This document shows, piece by piece, positions 25,030 to 45,425 of a stretch of DNA of 64,000 bases. Source of the DNA: Mixta hanseatica (GTDB lineage Bacteria > Pseudomonadota > Gammaproteobacteria > Enterobacterales > Enterobacteriaceae); the NCBI RefSeq assembly GCF_023517775.1, contig NZ_CP082904.1, positions 2,108,001 through 2,172,000 of the forward strand. Reading direction: 5' to 3'. Under the pieces are notes generated by a model that saw only the letters and a program-made list of their open reading frames with translations, had not been told where the DNA came from and searched no databases. The position numbers were made by a program, and so were the translations under genes. The stretch's first letter is position 1, and every line of letters begins with the position of its first letter.

Positions 25030-26185
25030 ATGCCAGCGGGCCGCCGATGATGGTCTCCTGCATTCCGCTCAGGATGCGCTCGCCGGTCTCCTGTTTCAGT
25101 TCCTCATACCAGGCTTGCGTCACCTCCGGCTGTTTGCCATGGGTAACATCGCAACGTCTGCGCGCCTTGAGTACCAGATCTTTTACCCGCTCTGCGCGGC
25201 GCGCCTCATAGCGCCGTAGCGCATCCTCAATTCCCAGCGAATGCGACTGAAGCGTTAATGCCAGCACCACTGCATCCTCCATTGCGGCACAGCCGCCCTG
25301 ACCAATATCCGGCGTGGTGCTGTGTCCGGCATCGCCCAGCAGCGCGACGCGGCCTTTTACCAGCCGCGGGAAGGGGTCGATATCATGGATTTCGATACGG
25401 TTGGTGGTTTGCGGATCAATAGCGGCGATCAGCTTCTGTACCGGCGCGGCCCAGCCGCTGAAATAGCGGGTGAGGTCTGCTTTCACGCTGCTGCGATCTT
25501 CCGCCAGTCCCTGCGGCAGCGGAACGTCAAAAAAGAAATAGAAACGGTTGCCGCTGACCGGCATTAGCGAAACCCGTTTGCCTTCGCCGACAAAGGTGGT
25601 CCACTGATCGGCAGGCGCAATGGACTCATCAATGCTGACCAGTCCATTCCAGTTGACGTAGCCAGCATAGCGCCGCTCGGCGGGCTGGCCGGTTACCGTG
25701 GCGCGGATGACCGAGTGGGTGCCGTCGGCGGCGATCAGAAAGTCGCCGCGCGCCTCGCTGCCATCCTCAAACCAGGCGGTAACGCCCGTGGCATCCTGCT
25801 CTATATGGCTGACGCGCTTGCCGAAGTTAACGCGCTGCGCACCGTAACGCTCAAGCAACATCGCCTGCAAATCGGCGCGCGCTACCGGATATGGCCGTTC
25901 GCCGACGCTCTCCACCAGCGGTCTCATGGAGAAACGGGTCAGGGTTTGTCCGTGCTGAAAATCGTTATAGGCCATAAACGCCATATTGCCGCCCAGCGCC
26001 TGCAGCTGCGTCTTCAGGCCAAGAAAATTCAGGCATTTGACGCCGTTTGGCCAGATAGAGATAGCCGCGCCCACCGGACGGATAATTTTTACCGCTTCAT
26101 AGACCTCGGTTTGATAACCGCTCTGTTCCAGCGCCAGCGCCGCGCACATTCCACCAATACCGCCACCGATTACGATCGCTTTCAT
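25028..26185 (-). CDS. hpxO: FAD-dependent urate hydroxylase HpxO
   Basis: A 385-aa flavoprotein monooxygenase that converts urate to 5-hydroxyisourate with NADH and oxygen, replacing uricase. The N-terminal dinucleotide motif GGGIGG follows MKAIVI, DG motif FLIAADGTHS is mid-protein, and the FAD-ribityl motif GDAGHSTTPDIGQGG is near residue 285. It aligns strongly with the Klebsiella HpxO. The start at 26185 has AAGGAG; upstream in-frame ATGs have no homology. A sigma-54-type promoter lies 32-47 bp upstream of the start codon, matching the control of guaD-xdhABC. No genes for hydroxyisourate hydrolase, OHCU decarboxylase or allantoinase are in the window. Confidence 0.93.
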   Translation of the reverse strand: MKAIVIGGGIGGMCAALALEQSGYQTEVYEAVKIIRPVGAAISIWPNGVKCLNFLGLKTQLQALGGNMAFMAYNDFQHGQTLTRFSMRPLVESVGERPYPVARADLQAMLLERYGAQRVNFGKRVSHIEQDATGVTAWFEDGSEARGDFLIAADGTHSVIRATVTGQPAERRYAGYVNWNGLVSIDESIAPADQWTTFVGEGKRVSLMPVSGNRFYFFFDVPLPQGLAEDRSSVKADLTRYFSGWAAPVQKLIAAIDPQTTNRIEIHDIDPFPRLVKGRVALLGDAGHSTTPDIGQGGCAAMEDAVVLALTLQSHSLGIEDALRRYEARRAERVKDLVLKARRRCDVTHGKQPEVTQAWYEELKQETGERILSGMQETIIGGPLA

Positions 26186-31793: not shown

Positions 31794-32594
31794 TTACCAG
31801 CCTTTGATAATATCGCCTTTATACAGTTCGTTGGCTTTGTTAAGCACTTCCTGTGACTGGAAGGCTTCTTTCAGCTTCTGAACATTTGGGCTGTCTTTGT
31901 TATCTTCACGCGCCACGATGGCATTAACATAAGGAGAGGCTTTGCCTTCCATAAACATGCCGTCGCGTGACGCAGAGAGATTAACCAGCGCCGCGAAGTT
32001 GTTATTGATGATGGAAACATAAACCTGCGGATCGTCCAGGGTGCGGGCCAGCTGTGGCGTATCAACCTCAACGAATTTAATTTTTTTCGGGTTAGAGGTG
32101 ATATCCAGCGTAGTCGGCAGCAGACCGGCTTCCGGCTTAACGGTGATCAAGCCCTGCGCCTGCAGCAGCAACAGGCTACGACCCAGCGTAGTGGCCTCAT
32201 TGGAAATGGTGATGGTCGCGCCATCCGGCAGTTCTTTCAGCGATTTGATCTTGTGTGAGTAGCCCGCGATCGGGAAAACAAAGGTATTAGTCACTACCGC
32301 AAAACGATAGCCGCGCTCTTTCGACTGCATTTCCAGATAGGGCAAGCTCTGGAAAGCGTTAGCGTCAACGTCTTTGTTAAACAGCGCTTCGTTTGGCTGT
32401 ACGTAGTCGTTAAAGGCCACCACATCGACATCAAGCTTATACTTATCGTGAGCAACCTGCTTAACGGTTTCCCATAATTGCTGATCGGGCCCGGTATTGA
32501 TGGCTACTTTGATTTTATTCTCGCTGTCGTTATCACAGGCGCTGAGCAGCGTTACAGATGCGGCAAGCAGTACCGTGAGCAGTGTTTTTTTCAT
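31794..32594 (-). CDS. NlpA/MetQ-family substrate-binding lipoprotein
   Basis: A 266-aa lipoprotein with the lipobox LLSAC (Cys20). It has the NLPA binding-protein domain of methionine ABC importers (VAINTGPDQQLWETVKQVA, FNDYVQPNEALFNKDVDANAFQ, NNNFAALVNLSASRDGMFMEGKASPYVN). Asp21 after the cysteine suggests retention in the inner membrane. No metN/metI genes adjoin it, as for E. coli NlpA. The promoter region carries tandem MetJ boxes, supporting a role in methionine or sulfur-compound uptake. Either NlpA or a second MetQ is possible. Confidence 0.88.
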   Translation of the reverse strand: MKKTLLTVLLAASVTLLSACDNDSENKIKVAINTGPDQQLWETVKQVAHDKYKLDVDVVAFNDYVQPNEALFNKDVDANAFQSLPYLEMQSKERGYRFAVVTNTFVFPIAGYSHKIKSLKELPDGATITISNEATTLGRSLLLLQAQGLITVKPEAGLLPTTLDITSNPKKIKFVEVDTPQLARTLDDPQVYVSIINNNFAALVNLSASRDGMFMEGKASPYVNAIVAREDNKDSPNVQKLKEAFQSQEVLNKANELYKGDIIKGW

Positions 32595-32713: not shown

Positions 32714-33748
32714 TCACAGCTGGCCGATTTTCTTTTCCATCAGGTCGATCATCGCGCCAGTATGGGCATCAACGTTACGGATGTAGCGCATCAGGGTTTC
32801 CGGTTTCTTCCACGTGCCTTCCTGCATGATCTGCGCCACGGCATAACCTTGTTTCGCCATATCCTGAGCGGCGCCCACGCGGGCGCTGTGCCCGCTCCAG
32901 CCGCGATAACGATTTTTGTTACCCTTTGGCTGACCTTGCCCAACTTCTCGCCAGGCATGGATAAAAATATCCTCCAGCGCCGGCGTGCTTAAAGGGCGGT
33001 GCGCGGTTATCAGGGCTTTATTCGCGCGATGTACCGGACAGAAAAGAAAGGCATCCGGCTCGCTGGTAAGTCCGGCAAGGTTTATCCATTCGGTGAGGCG
33101 TAGAGAAGATAAGGTGCTAAGCGCCTTAATCAATCCACCGGTTTGAACAATGGTTTTTGTCCAGGCGACATCAAGGATAATGCGGCCATCGTCAGCGCGG
33201 GTAATATCGCTGACCCGCAGACGCGCCAGTTCGCTCACACGCAGCAGCGTACTGTACGCCACATGCAAAAATGCCAGATTACGCACTTCTTTTAATTGCG
33301 CGGAGTTTTGCCATCGGCTATCAAGCGCCTTTAAATCTGATAAACAAAAAGGGACGGCCTGGCCGGTGCGTTCGCCAGAGACCACGGCCACACGGTTGAT
33401 TTTCTTCATGGCGCGGAACACCGCAGGAGAACTATTCGGTGGAAGTAGTCCGGCGTTACGATGCAGCATGGAAATAAGCGATGCGTGCGTGGCGATAGTA
33501 GAAGAAGCGCGGCCGCTTGCCTGCAACCAGGTCAGGTAATCCCGCAAATCTTCAGGCGTCATCGGCAAAAAGCACCGACCGTTTTCCGTAGCCCAGTGAT
33601 GACAAATACGCATTACGCTTAGCAGCTGGCGCCAGGTATTCGGCGAGAAAGCGTCACGATCCTGCACAAACGCGCGCAGCTGTTCGGCGATGTTGTCATC
33701 GGCAATCAAGGCCGGTAGTTGCGCATCCTGTTGGATAATTTTTGTCAT
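32714..33748 (-). CDS. Cre-type tyrosine recombinase
   Basis: A 344-aa tyrosine recombinase that resembles phage P1 Cre (343 aa) along its full length, far more than phage integrases or XerC/D. Shared segments include FSPNTWRQLLSV, the PEDLRDYLTWLQASG core-binding part, NLAFLHVAYSTLLRVSELAR and WSGHSARVGAAQDMA. All six catalytic positions of Cre have counterparts: Arg170 (Cre R173), Lys198 (K201), His287 (H289), Arg290 (R292), Trp313 (W315) and Tyr322 (Y324) in YIRN. It should therefore be active. Upstream lie a 17-bp inverted repeat and a 34-bp lox-like site, and dif is 1 kb away. There is no excisionase or other phage gene nearby. The ribosome binding site is weak (GAGC). Confidence 0.93.
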   Translation of the reverse strand: MTKIIQQDAQLPALIADDNIAEQLRAFVQDRDAFSPNTWRQLLSVMRICHHWATENGRCFLPMTPEDLRDYLTWLQASGRASSTIATHASLISMLHRNAGLLPPNSSPAVFRAMKKINRVAVVSGERTGQAVPFCLSDLKALDSRWQNSAQLKEVRNLAFLHVAYSTLLRVSELARLRVSDITRADDGRIILDVAWTKTIVQTGGLIKALSTLSSLRLTEWINLAGLTSEPDAFLFCPVHRANKALITAHRPLSTPALEDIFIHAWREVGQGQPKGNKNRYRGWSGHSARVGAAQDMAKQGYAVAQIMQEGTWKKPETLMRYIRNVDAHTGAMIDLMEKKIGQL

Positions 33749-33783
33749 TTTTAGCTCGGTAAATGTCCATATTGCCTTTGATC

Positions 33784-33842
33784 GCGCTACGTGAAATCTG
33801 AGGAATAAGCAGGGTAGTTATGCTGCAGAATTCACGTAGCGC
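33784..33842. repeat. 17-bp inverted repeat upstream of the Cre-like gene
   Basis: Arm GCGCTACGTGAAATCTG (33784-33800) and its reverse complement with one mismatch (33826-33842) are separated by 25 bp. It lies 36 bp upstream of the recombinase start, so it may be an operator, a leader hairpin controlling translation, or an accessory recombination site. Confidence 0.85.
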
Positions 33843-34198
33843 CACCAAAATAGCGGCGTAAATTTGCCTGGTTAAGGGCGCCGATCATCATACCTGCCTG
33901 ATAATACGCTGTCATAACTTTATATAAGTCCCATTATATAAGGTTAAGCAGCAGGATCCTCAAACGATCGCAAAGGAGAGGGTAAAGACGGCCTGTTTCC
34001 GTGGCGCTCGTTGAAAGGCAGCTATAAATATTAATAGCCTTCCGGTAAGCTTTTTTGTGCCAGGGCGAGCGGAATAAAATTAGGTCTGACGTCTTATTGG
34101 CATAACGACTGCGATGAAAATAGACTGAAGGCTACTGACATTGCACAGCAGGACTAAAATTGGCTGATGTAAGCAGCGCCGCCTGAATAAGGGAAATC
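33843..34198. other. Non-coding stretch between recombinase and GrpB gene
   Basis: Together with the flanking repeats this makes 450 bp without a gene (33749-34198). Apart from the lox-like site and the inverted repeat I see no ORF, tRNA or second recombination site. The part after 33948 presumably holds the promoter of the GrpB-family gene. Confidence 0.5.
33914..33947. repeat. lox-like recombination site (13-8-13)
   Basis: Left arm ATAACTTTATATA (33914-33926), spacer AGTCCCAT (33927-33934), right arm TATATAAGGTTAA (33935-33947). The arms are inverted with 11 of 13 positions matching. The left arm differs from the P1 loxP arm (ATAACTTCGTATA) at only two positions, and the 8-bp asymmetric spacer is exactly loxP-sized. 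It is 166 bp upstream of the Cre-like gene. A second copy was not found in the window. Confidence 0.82.
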
Positions 34199-34717
34199 AT
34201 GCCGAGAATCATCACTGTTGAACCATACAATCCTGACTGGCCAGCCGCGTATAAAAAAGAAGCGAGTCAATTCAACAATGTTTTATCCGATCTGTTGCTG
34301 AACATAGAGCATATCGGCAGCACCGCAGTAACGGGGCTGGCAGCCAAGCCGATCATTGATATTTTATTCGTCGTGAAAAGCCTGCAAGAACTGGACGAGA
34401 GCGATGCGGCAATCAAAGCGATGGGATACATACCGCGTGGTGAATATGGCATTGCAGGTCGACGTTATTTTGTTAAGGGCGGTGACAGCCGTACGCATCA
34501 CGTGCATGCATTTGAAAACGGAAGCCAGCATATCGTCAGGCATTTAGCCTTCAGGGATTATCTGCGTAGACATCATGAAATTGCTGAGCAGTATGCCGAG
34601 ACTAAGCGCAAAGCCGTTGCAGCATGTGGCGACAGTTCAGCCATCTATAGTCAGCTGAAAAGCGCGTTTATCGGTTGCCATGAAAAACGGGCGCTGGAGG
34701 AGCTGAGGGCCAGATAG
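34199..34717 (+). CDS. GrpB-family nucleotidyltransferase-like protein
   Basis: A 172-aa protein of the GrpB/UPF0157 family, which has a nucleotidyltransferase fold. Typical segments are VEPYNPDWPAAYKKEA, IEHIGSTAVTGLAAKPIIDI and the HHVHAFENGSQHIVRHLAFRDYLR region. In some proteins this domain is fused to dephospho-CoA kinase, but the free-standing form has no proven activity. AAGGGAA precedes the ATG. It ends 46 bp before dif and is the only gene between the lox-like site and dif. Confidence 0.88.
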   Translation: MPRIITVEPYNPDWPAAYKKEASQFNNVLSDLLLNIEHIGSTAVTGLAAKPIIDILFVVKSLQELDESDAAIKAMGYIPRGEYGIAGRRYFVKGGDSRTHHVHAFENGSQHIVRHLAFRDYLRRHHEIAEQYAETKRKAVAACGDSSAIYSQLKSAFIGCHEKRALEELRAR

Positions 34718-34763: not shown

Positions 34764-34791
34764 GGTGCGCATAATGTATATTATGTTAAAT
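34764..34791 (+). other. dif, chromosome dimer resolution site
   Basis: 28 bp identical to the E. coli dif sequence as I know it: XerC arm GGTGCGCATAA, central TGTATA, XerD arm TTATGTTAAAT. XerC and XerD, activated by FtsK at the septum, recombine here to resolve chromosome dimers. The position fits the terminus: Ter/tus lies 33 kb away, oriented to stop forks that have already passed dif from the right. The orientation XerC-to-XerD is left to right in the window. Confidence 0.96.
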
Positions 34792-34892: not shown

Positions 34893-35600
34893 TCAGTCCT
34901 TGCCCGGCACAATAAGGACATCAAGCCTGTCAGCAAGATCGAGCACATCGTCGTAAGTAGCGGGATCGTGAACCAGGCTGAGTGACTCACCGGTCTGGCA
35001 AAGCGATCCTGGGGTAATCCGATCACCAAATAGCATCATCGCACGTGCGGTGTCATCCTGCCTCGATACCCATGCCAGCCCCTGCGCCGTCAGGCTTTGC
35101 TGATAAAGCTTTTCGGCCCATTTTCGGGTCATTGAGTACTGATCCTTTTCGGTGTCGATTAACGCTTTGCGAGTAATACCCAGCTTACGCAACGACACAC
35201 TGGCAAGGTCCAGTAGTTCCAGATCCTCGACGACCTCAAGTGTGGAATGCACCTGCCCCTTCAGCTTGCTTTTATCGTAAGTTTTAACTCCAGGCGCAAA
35301 TGAGACATCATGAAACACCGTCTCCATCATGGCACAGTCTTTGGTTACCCCCGCGTACATAGTCGGGATGGGCTCACCTTCAGCATCCTGTATAGGGCTG
35401 AAGCGCGCGTTGCCGCGCTGGCCAGGATTAAACTGGTCGGCCGCATACTGCTCTTGATGGACGCGGTGCAATAGGGTCCCTTTCTTTAACGAGTACGTTG
35501 TTGTCTTCAGGAGGCCAGAATGAGGCAGCGGCGTATTCCAGGCGTCATCCTGCTTGGGTTGCTCCGACGCCGCTTTTGCTTTGGCGGGACGCTTAGCCAT
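34893..35600 (-). CDS. RES-domain toxin
   Basis: A 235-aa protein with a RES domain (about residues 35-215). Such toxins (ParT/MbcT-like) act on NAD or by ADP-ribosylation and halt growth. Recognisable parts are LLHRVHQEQYAADQFNPGQRGNARFSP, holding the conserved Arg and Tyr, and TMYAGVTKDCAMMETVFHDV with the conserved Glu. The basic N-terminal tail (MAKRPAKAKAASEQPKQDD) precedes it. The ATG overlaps the end of the upstream Xre-type antitoxin gene by 8 bp, the usual antitoxin-toxin coupling. The pair lies immediately beyond dif. Confidence 0.88.
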   Translation of the reverse strand: MAKRPAKAKAASEQPKQDDAWNTPLPHSGLLKTTTYSLKKGTLLHRVHQEQYAADQFNPGQRGNARFSPIQDAEGEPIPTMYAGVTKDCAMMETVFHDVSFAPGVKTYDKSKLKGQVHSTLEVVEDLELLDLASVSLRKLGITRKALIDTEKDQYSMTRKWAEKLYQQSLTAQGLAWVSRQDDTARAMMLFGDRITPGSLCQTGESLSLVHDPATYDDVLDLADRLDVLIVPGKD

Positions 35601-36270
35601 GCTCTATCCCCTGAACTTCATCCCTGGCCGCTGCAATCACCTGCTCAGGCTGCGTAGCCAGCATGTCCTGTGGCCGTTTCCCGCCCAGAAAGCTGTTGGC
35701 CGACAAAAACCAGAACGCCATCCCCCAACTATCTTTATGACTTTCAAACACCTCGATCACATGAGCCAGTGCTTTCAGAGGCCGGAAGCCCTCATCCTTG
35801 TTCAGACCATAGGCCGGGAAGTAATCAACACCATTATGATGGATGGCAAAGATGCGGCCGGTCTTCTTCCATTTATTCGGCTGCGCACTTGGGTTGGCGG
35901 TGCTTAACTGCGCCAGCTCTGTCAGTTCAGCAGCAGTTAGCCAGTCACCACTTTCCAGCACGGCCTTGCGCGCTTTAACCAACATTGCCACTTCTTTAAT
36001 AATGTGTGGCGACGCAGGTTTAGGTGGCACCAGCGCCTCTGCCAGGCGATCCAGCGTTGCACGACTTTGCTGCTGCTGTTGAAACACCCCGTACATAGAA
36101 GACGCCATGTTTGACAGGTTTTCCATCAGAACCTTTGTCTCGTGATGATTCTGGTGCTCAAAAGAGACAACCAGCACTTGCCTGGCATGGGACTTGTCGA
36201 GACGGACTCTCACTTCTTTCGGGGTTCCAATCAGGGTGGAAACCCCAGGGTGCTCTTTCTGGACACTCAT
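35593..36270 (-). CDS. Xre/MbcA/ParS-type antitoxin partner of RES toxin
   Basis: A 225-aa protein whose C-terminal ~60 residues (VIEVFESHKDSWGMAFWFLSANSFLGGKRPQDMLATQPEQVIAAARDE) match the DUF2384 toxin-binding domain of RES-neutralising antitoxins. It is longer than typical members (about 120-150 aa). It has an extra N-terminal region (residues 1-100) with a glutamine-rich helix (VFQQQQQSRATLDRLAEAL), and a middle AAELTELAQLS segment that may be an HTH. The start at 36270 follows GGAG at 9 bases. A palindrome in the promoter suggests autorepression. Confidence 0.82.
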   Translation of the reverse strand: MSVQKEHPGVSTLIGTPKEVRVRLDKSHARQVLVVSFEHQNHHETKVLMENLSNMASSMYGVFQQQQQSRATLDRLAEALVPPKPASPHIIKEVAMLVKARKAVLESGDWLTAAELTELAQLSTANPSAQPNKWKKTGRIFAIHHNGVDYFPAYGLNKDEGFRPLKALAHVIEVFESHKDSWGMAFWFLSANSFLGGKRPQDMLATQPEQVIAAARDEVQGIEHG

Positions 36271-36286
36271 GGATGCTCTCCTGCAT

Positions 36287-36329
36287 GGGTTATCAACATG
36301 ATTTAATAATATCATATCCATGATAACCC
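36287..36329 (-). promoter_or_regulatory. Palindromic operator/promoter of the toxin-antitoxin operon
   Basis: Perfect 9-bp inverted repeats GGGTTATCA (36287-36295) and TGATAACCC (36321-36329) surround a 25-bp AT-rich centre. The centre contains inner ATGAT/ATCAT repeats and a TATTAT-like -10 on the minus strand. It lies 17 bp upstream of the antitoxin start codon. Confidence 0.65.
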
Positions 36330-43793: not shown

Positions 43794-45425
43794 ATGCAAT
43801 TAATGAATCTGTCACCACAGCTCACGCCCGCGCCTAAGCGCCCAATGAAACTCAGTACCCTGGCTACGTTAATGATGGTTGGGGTGATATTTACGGTGCT
43901 GCTTAGCGTTCACCTTCTCTATTTTATTCAGATCGATAATTTCACTCATTCGCATGTGAAAGATAAGGCCTTAGCTGTTGCGCGCACGCTGGCTGAAGAT
44001 CCGCAAATTCAGCGCGGCCTGACCCTGCCCGCTGACCAGGGTATTATCCAGCCTGTCGCCAAAGCGGTGCAAAAGCGTAACGATCTGCTGTTTGTCACCG
44101 TAACCGATATGCAAGGCGTGCGTTATTCACATGCTAATAGCGCTTTAGTTAATAAACGTTTTATTGGCCAGGATCTGCAACCAGCGCTGGCCGGTCATGA
44201 AAACGTCTCGGTTAATCACGGTACGCTGGTTGAAGCCTTACGCGTATTCACACCGGTATTTAATACGCGCCACCAGCAAATCGGCGTGGTAGCGATCGGC
44301 ATCTCCCTTAGCGATGTCACGGCACAAATTAATCGAAGCCGCTGGAATATTTTCTGGACTATTTTGCTGGGCGGTTCGGTAGGCATATTAGGCGTGCTGA
44401 TATTGGTCAGGCGCCTGAAGACGATTCTGCTGGGGCTGGAGCCACATGAGATTTCCAGCCTGTTTGAACAGCGGCAGGCGATTCTTGATTCGGTAAAGGA
44501 AGGCGTCATTGCGGTGGATGCCGATGCGCGCGTGACGCTGATTAATCAGGCCGCGCAGCAGCTGTTGCGGGAAACAGCGATCGAAGCGCCGCTCAGCGGC
44601 GATCGCATCCCTGAGCATTCGCTGATGTTAAGCCATCTGCGGGACGCGCTGCATGACGGCACGGCCCGCTACGATGGAGAACTTAACGTGCAGGGACGCA
44701 TTATGATCAGCAATACGGTGCCGGTGCGCAGTCACAAACGAATTATCGGCGCGGTATGTACCTTCCGCGATAAAACGGAAATCAGCCAGCTGATGCAGCG
44801 TCTCGACGGCATGGTAAACTATGTCGATGCGTTACGTGAACGCTCCCATGAGTTTATGAATAAACTGCACGTTATCCTCGGGCTGCTGCATATGAAAAAC
44901 TATGCCCAGATGGAAGCCTATATATTAAAAACCGCAAATAATTATCAGACCGAGATCGGCTCCCTGTTGCAACGCATTAAGCCGCCGATAATAGCAGGAT
45001 GTTTGTTAAGTAAAATTAACCGGGCATCGGATAAGGGGCATCGCTTAATTCTGAACGAGGCCAGTTATCTGCCTGACAGCGGCAGCGAAAAACAGGTTGC
45101 GGCGCTGGTAAGCATCCTGGGAAACCTGATTGAGAATGCGCTGGAAGCGTTAGACCAGCAGCAGGAAGGCGAAATACATCTGTTGCTGCATTACCAGAAT
45201 GGATGGTTGTCCTGCGAGGTCAGCGATGACGGCCCGGGTATTCCCGCCCCGCTGGCAAGTGCCATTTTCACTAAAGGTTTTTCTTCAAAAGGCGATGAAC
45301 GCGGGATGGGCCTGTTTTTGGTTAAACAGCAAACAGAAAGCCTTGGCGGGAATATTAGCGTCGAATCGGAACCGGGCGTCTATACCCAATTTTTTGTACA
45401 ACTCCCGTGGGATAAAGGAAATTAA
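43794..45425 (+). CDS. dcuS: C4-dicarboxylate sensor kinase DcuS
   Basis: A 543-aa membrane histidine kinase of the CitA/DcuS family sensing fumarate, malate and succinate. It has transmembrane helix 1 at about residues 22-45, a periplasmic PAS (Cache-like) domain with RYSHANSALVNKRFIGQ, and transmembrane helix 2 near 185-205. A cytoplasmic PAS domain follows, then the phospho-acceptor His in RERSHEFMNKLHVILGLLHMK and the HATPase N-box NLIENALEAL with DDGPGI. Length equals E. coli DcuS. It is followed by dcuR 5 bp downstream. ATGs at 43794 and 43803 are both possible starts. Confidence 0.95.
   Translation: MQLMNLSPQLTPAPKRPMKLSTLATLMMVGVIFTVLLSVHLLYFIQIDNFTHSHVKDKALAVARTLAEDPQIQRGLTLPADQGIIQPVAKAVQKRNDLLFVTVTDMQGVRYSHANSALVNKRFIGQDLQPALAGHENVSVNHGTLVEALRVFTPVFNTRHQQIGVVAIGISLSDVTAQINRSRWNIFWTILLGGSVGILGVLILVRRLKTILLGLEPHEISSLFEQRQAILDSVKEGVIAVDADARVTLINQAAQQLLRETAIEAPLSGDRIPEHSLMLSHLRDALHDGTARYDGELNVQGRIMISNTVPVRSHKRIIGAVCTFRDKTEISQLMQRLDGMVNYVDALRERSHEFMNKLHVILGLLHMKNYAQMEAYILKTANNYQTEIGSLLQRIKPPIIAGCLLSKINRASDKGHRLILNEASYLPDSGSEKQVAALVSILGNLIENALEALDQQQEGEIHLLLHYQNGWLSCEVSDDGPGIPAPLASAIFTKGFSSKGDERGMGLFLVKQQTESLGGNISVESEPGVYTQFFVQLPWDKGN

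Follow-up and report, generated by a model that had tools for sequence, protein, structure and literature searches.

A gene for a Cre-type tyrosine recombinase and its cognate lox site are located on the chromosome of Mixta hanseatica, 0.8 kb away from dif. Chromosomal pairs of this type occupy four loci in M. hanseatica and its relatives; in the eight genomes with cre and dif on one contig, lox is never more than about 60 kb from dif, and at three of the four loci the gene is under purifying selection. The recombinase is a member of a known family; new is the arrangement at the terminus beside dif, and this proximity, which the preliminary description of the sequence had missed, is the real finding at cre/lox. 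A literature search at the level of titles and the opening of abstracts returned, among its best matches, no report of a natural chromosomal Cre/lox system beside dif. We incline to the reading that modules of the plasmid dimer-resolution type were repeatedly moved into the terminus and are kept there as an auxiliary Cre/lox resolution system beside XerCD/dif. Positions refer to the window, i.e., the whole stretch of 64,000 nucleotides that was analysed (positions 2,108,001 to 2,172,000 of contig NZ_CP082904.1), and are listed in Table 1.

Table 1. Features surrounding lox and dif in the window.
Feature	Position	Strand	Remarks
MetQ/NlpA-family lipoprotein gene, on the cre side	31794..32594	minus	Conserved chromosomal neighbour; left edge of the variable dif zone
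cre, P1-Cre-type tyrosine recombinase gene (344 aa)	32714..33748	minus	ORF, Pfam and phmmer; one copy in the genome
57-bp inverted-repeat element, between lox and cre	33785..33841	minus	Span equal in relatives and phage P1
lox-like site	33914..33947	minus	Arms 33914-33926 and 33935-33947; 8-bp spacer at 33927-33934 (cre strand: ATGGGACT)
GrpB-family gene, located between lox and dif	34199..34717	plus	PF04229, E = 6e-50
dif (XerC/XerD core)	34764..34791	plus	Identical to the E. coli dif core; one copy in the genome at ≤3 mismatches
RES-domain gene and upstream partner (toxin-antitoxin-like pair), just past dif	34893..36321	minus	PF08808 for the RES protein; partner without Pfam match

The architecture of P1 Cre and the six catalytic positions attributed earlier to the 344-aa protein were confirmed by the open reading frame, Pfam, phmmer and alignment. 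The product displays the Phage_integrase and SAM-like N domains of Pfam, matches P1 Cre structures in the PDB with an E value of approximately 7e-85 (phmmer), and aligns with Cre over nearly its full length (query residues 9-338), with an identity of 42.6% over 340 aligned columns. Residues R170, E173, K198, H287, R290, W313, and Y322 pair with R173, E176, K201, H289, R292, W315, and Y324 of Cre, and the R-K-H-R-W-Y set of the tyrosine recombinases is complete. The corresponding residues at Cre positions 43 and 259 are Arg40 and Pro256, as in Dre. Compared to the curated cut-offs for XerC and XerD, the protein scored 35.3 vs 335.15 and 33.1 vs 329.6 bits, respectively, and is not a Xer equivalog. 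The gene occurs once in the genome (4.44 Mb, 5 contigs), on contig C1 of 4,302,229 bp that bears lox and also dif, which supports the chromosomal location of a Cre-type recombinase with its cognate site. Cre-type systems are usually, but not by definition, found on plasmids or plasmid prophages, and this cre is not. The protein is no rarity: 4,198 plasmid records matched it in a tblastn search, with identities of 60-80% for 120 records and of less than 60% for all others. The nearest named relatives at 92% identity, in Mixta theicola and in Pantoea alhagi (now classed in Mixta), are both already annotated as 'recombinase Cre'. A 2023 paper reportedly presents new Cre-type recombinases, some of which may belong to this family. 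As a recombinase tool, the pair adds one to the Cre-type systems, and its arms resemble those of plasmid relatives.

The 34-bp element of 13-8-13 geometry described before was found exactly as such upstream of cre, with 165 bp between it and the start codon, and 11 of 13 positions of its arms are complementary. Allowing up to three mismatches, the 34-mer matched once in the window, compared to no match in 100 shuffles, and once in the genome, at the window site. The site was still single when searched with relaxed arms and a free spacer (≤3 mismatches). Single sites also occur in G002, G003, G004, G005, G100, G545, and G542, so that neither in these genomes nor in that of M. hanseatica (G000) is a plasmid lox partner visible. 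No lox was found in G001 and G007, both lacking cre. In G066, a different contig bears a second lox-like site. For the lox, repeat, and tree counts, 36 duplicates were removed from 115 loci with a cre relative, leaving 79. A lox-like site was present upstream of cre in 74 of the 79 loci and in none of 74 downstream control stretches; the preliminary description had let its case hang on the site being present in relatives that carry the gene, and it is. The five other loci differ among themselves. A perfect lox lies about 17 kb away on the same contig in L009 (G065), L031 has a divergent lox-like site, and L200 is the fifth locus without a nearby site. In L004 (G486), a weak match is found some 17 kb off, and in L059 (G027, Duffyella gerundensis) cre is on a 571-kb contig while the only lox-like match, G027:C3:83048, is on another; both matches may be due to chance, as each has three mismatches and a backward control pattern matched once in 5 of 24 genomes.

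Arms and spacer of the window site recur in relatives. The arms are part of a continuous family among the 74 sites (TTTATATA, TTCATATA, TTCGTATA), and the spacer ATGGGACT is the commonest of 36 spacers, occurring in 14 of the 74 sites. The idea of a pair with spacer and arm specificity of its own is therefore not supported, and we rejected a unique lox specificity. The left arm departs from loxP at arm positions 8-9 and the right arm at more positions. The difference of the left arm in the CG bases had been correctly noted, and the lack of CG is common in the family. C is present at arm position 8 of both arms wherever Cre position 259 is Arg (31 of 31 proteins), but for none of the 38 proteins with Pro; the 5 other proteins have Lys, Val or a gap. 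The lox arms therefore track the enzyme and co-vary with Cre residue 259, although shared ancestry inflates the association. Position 259 is among the residues known to shift Cre between loxP and rox (PMC4957104, in part).

The 57-bp inverted repeat between lox and cre, when folded as DNA, yielded a z score of -6.0. It was detected in 65 of the 71 near loci and in 6 of the 8 distant ones, compared to 3 of 67 downstream controls. The counterpart in phage P1 (L257:117-173) overlaps the annotated P3cre promoter, and the element is conserved at a fixed span from P1 to the Pantoea-type loci. As a guess, the repeat may be involved in the regulation of cre. Rfam matches near the repeat (a microRNA precursor and an IRES) were below the gathering score and were attributed to chance. 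At one of the chromosomal loci, locus C (L010, L049, and L194), lox is located about 905 bp from cre, with an extra open reading frame, cytochrome b561-like by eye, between the repeat and cre.

In the window, the distance between lox and dif is 847 bp from centre to centre. KOPS motifs occur on the plus strand at 25368, 29389, and 39859 and on the minus strand at 44023, one of the four against the expected polarity; lox is a terminus site, at or near dif and the KOPS switch. Chromosomal backbone on both sides is syntenic in Mixta, and the zone from the MetQ-family gene to approximately 48.03 kb, which includes dif, varies from one compared species to the next. The junction between cre and the MetQ-family gene is common to the window, G005, and G004 (M. 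theicola), as is the cre-lox stretch, and homology stops at the outer edge of lox; G001 and G007 lack both cre and lox. A block of the dif zone at approximately 41997-46160 matches, with 76% identity, Pantoea megaplasmid genes for a sensor kinase as well as mqo and dcuR, and two plasmid records have a piece of the 30-50 kb region at ≥99%. A tellurite-resistance-type cluster (by eye) in the dif zone of G005 (C1:3711-3723 kb) matches, at 66-77%, part of the contig that carries cre in G006. Another 20 kb of this G006 contig match Pantoea plasmids at 99.9-100%, and among plasmid searches with four stretches of draft cre contigs, near-identical matches over most of the query were obtained for G006 only. 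Dif-like sites are present on some plasmids or secondary contigs. The idea of an element bounded by a pair of dif or a pair of lox sites was dismissed, as only one of each was found in the M. hanseatica genome. In M. theicola (G004, C2:305080-333302) the segment from lox to dif is inverted, dif being reversed relative to the backbone; we do not claim an inversion made by Cre, since the breakpoint is about 95 bp outside lox and the search of that genome revealed no second lox. A YhgA-like gene (PF04754) is found near cre in G100 (L155:8386-9204), and similarly in G066, G542, G545, G420, and G474, on chromosomes as well as on secondary contigs.

The search for dif covered the M. hanseatica genome and sets of 8, 45, and 30 genomes, several of them doubly represented and two (G001 and G007) without cre. 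On contigs holding both cre and dif, from 8 distinct genomes, lox was located 0.8-60.3 kb from dif in 8 of 8, a count that leaves out 13 genomes with cre at E 1e-60 or better (G471, G482, G488, G498, G504, G505, G506, and the more distant G124, G154, G214, G220, G383, and G434) as well as the contigs (0.9-4.7 Mb) with the candidate proteins P0003, P0030, P0033, P0036, and P0104. A cre far from dif was not found on the contigs with both in these 8 genomes. According to synteny, the pairs belong to four non-orthologous loci. At locus A, lox and dif are separated by 0.85 kb in M. hanseatica, 1.07 kb in G005, and 25.0 kb in M. theicola (G004); at locus B by 55.2 kb in G002, with a draft counterpart in G003 in which cre and dif are on separate contigs; at locus C by 45.1 kb in G066, 34.3 kb in G100, and 29.0 kb in G545; and at locus D by 60.3 kb in G542. 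The set of 45 genomes stood for 46 of 53 loci, L016 excepted, the seven others belonging by record title to genomes covered otherwise; in this set, dif was on the cre contig in G066 and G100 only. For the remaining genomes of this set, the size of the dif contig was unlike that of the cre contig or the dif position was beyond its end, and G084 yielded no match to dif. In 24 other genomes whose cre contig was sized, this contig measures 73 kb to 1.5 Mb and is not the one with dif; G473 and G474 carry cre on secondary contigs of 1.4-1.5 Mb and gave no dif match.

A tree of 79 Cre proteins required four label changes, and its well-supported branches force four. In this tree, loci not shown to be chromosomal were labelled 'other', so that undecided drafts (e.g., L005, L006, L008, L009, and L011) could alter the changes, and a warning of long branches among the distant rows applies. 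Sisters in the tree include copies on secondary replicons, two of which are annotated plasmids (E602 and Duffyella), and we infer that movement was from plasmid to chromosome. If four events were placed uniformly, the probability of all being within 60.3 kb of dif would be 6e-7, or 4e-4 with a five-fold enrichment of the terminus, a statistic picked after the data had been seen.

The ratio dN/dS of cre was 0.043-0.062 at locus A, 0.083 at locus B, and 0.078-0.096 at locus C, demonstrating strong purifying selection on the chromosomal gene at these loci; two pairs from other loci gave 0.028 and 0.149, values that bracket those of loci A, B, and C. Between species, lox keeps 30-34 of 34 positions and the adjoining 72 bp keep 61-82%. 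The spacer is identical in locus A and keeps 7-8 of 8 positions in C and 6 of 8 in B, as would be anticipated if the only recombination partner of a site is its own sister copy. Locus D is decaying, as the cre gene of G542 has an in-frame TAG. In G062, a lox with three mismatches and the 57-bp repeat occur without cre (L249, G062:C22:57009) at 60.7 kb from dif, in a place matching locus D of G542, which appears to be the scar of a lost chromosomal cre.

According to the reading we prefer, the lox-repeat-cre unit would be a plasmid dimer-resolution module relocated to the terminus of the chromosome. After replication, both sister copies of lox would be located at mid-cell, in the terminus region in which FtsK is active. 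The encoded Cre would act on this lox and recombine the sister copies in a synapse simplified by FtsK translocation, and would in this FtsK-dependent way contribute to turning chromosome dimers into monomers in its native host, as engineered Cre/loxP does in the E. coli ter region. In E. coli, Cre-loxP within ter can substitute for XerCD-dif, depending on KOPS-guided FtsK; recombination by Cre needs no activation by FtsK, but chromosome dimer resolution by Cre does need FtsK (both PMC2680272, in part). FtsK is active chiefly within some 400 kb surrounding dif, and E. coli dif is efficient only inside a narrower dif activity zone (PMC3140498, in part). A lox site beside dif is therefore where a Cre system can resolve dimers. 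On P1, loxP is located opposite the origin in a genome with KOPS bias (PMC11724359, in part). That Erwiniaceae moved a plasmid Cre/lox module to the dif region at least four times independently, and that selection keeps it as a second system for chromosome dimer resolution, seems to us evenly poised between right and wrong. Several observations argue against an auxiliary role. Dif is intact in 8 genomes (7 exact, 1 with one mismatch), 6 of which carry cre, and there is therefore no known need of the cell for a second system. By analogy to the narrower dif activity zone of E. coli, the distances of 29-60 kb at loci B, C, and D may be too large. The decay of locus D, the second lox-like site in G066, and the argument that control by FtsK is not readily gained outside XerCD (PMC11724359, in part) point in the same direction.

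The chief rival, in our view unlikely, is that plasmid DNA with cre/lox entered the variable zone at dif, either through integration by Xer at dif or owing to a terminus prone to insertion, and has no role in segregation. The zone from MetQ to approximately 48.03 kb is different in each Mixta genome of the comparison and contains further plasmid-like DNA, so that a hot spot alone could place cre there. Such an origin is also favoured by the resemblance of the window block at about 42.0-46.2 kb to Pantoea megaplasmids, by the similarity of the G005 cluster to the plasmid-like G006 contig, by the dif-like sites on plasmids or secondary contigs, and by the decay of locus D. A passenger of this type is, however, difficult to reconcile with dN/dS values of 0.04-0.10 at pairwise dS of 0.4-1.1 at three loci and with a lox that outlasts its flanks. 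In addition, G002 has conserved chromosomal backbone between dif and cre, and integration at dif itself therefore cannot explain locus B.

Ranked after this, and improbable, is counter-selection without benefit: an active Cre/lox elsewhere would generate dimers that FtsK cannot resolve, and only insertions near dif would survive. The lack of FtsK activation in Cre recombination along with the FtsK dependence of dimer resolution by Cre (PMC2680272, in part) would fit such a filter, as does the absence of cre far from dif on contigs with both; however, it leaves the long purifying selection on cre unexplained, since a merely tolerated gene should decay. We give very little credence to an action of chromosomal cre in trans, either in plasmid dimer resolution in the same cell or in the capture of lox-bearing plasmids. 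Relatives do have such modules on plasmids, and in G027 cre and the only lox-like match, possibly a chance one, are on different contigs. On the other hand, all 5 contigs of the M. hanseatica genome together hold one cre and one lox, and the same seven relatives as above have a single lox.

The replacement of dif by loxP together with Cre is said to have been a laboratory experiment that showed what dimer resolution requires. If the preferred reading, that of an auxiliary resolution system, is true, a natural Cre/lox less than 1 kb from dif, with three further loci following the pattern, would be nature's counterpart of the engineered Cre at dif. It would also mean that chromosomes can domesticate the resolution modules of plasmids, and would raise the question of why a cell with an intact dif retains a second system.

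Compared to known systems, the window pair resembles Cre/loxP of phage P1 in domain order and catalytic residues, in having a 13-8-13 site located upstream of cre, and in the 57-bp inverted repeat. It differs in sequence identity, in the Dre-type residues at Cre positions 43 and 259, and in arms and spacer. P1 Cre/loxP resides on a plasmid prophage, whereas the window pair is chromosomal and beside dif, and P1 has cra between lox and cre, for which the 165 bp in the window leave no room. With Dre/rox of phage D6 and Panto/pox of Pantoea sp. aB, the pair shares arms without CG and the residues Arg (Cre position 43) and Pro (position 259). In Cre, these two residues cause a shift towards rox (PMC4957104, in part). 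The window protein is 42.7% identical to Dre and differs from it at position 263, with Asp instead of Lys. Like the engineered dif::loxP with Cre in E. coli, which substitutes for XerCD/dif in an FtsK-dependent manner (PMC2680272, in part), the pair combines a terminus lox with Cre. In contrast to the engineered system, it is natural, encoded in cis, located beside an intact dif rather than replacing it, and known here from sequence. With XerCD/dif and the single-recombinase XerL/dif system of Legionellales (PMC9765430, in part) it shares a tyrosine recombinase with a terminus site, but the window cre is not a Xer equivalog (35 and 33 bits vs 335 and 330) and its site is additional to dif.
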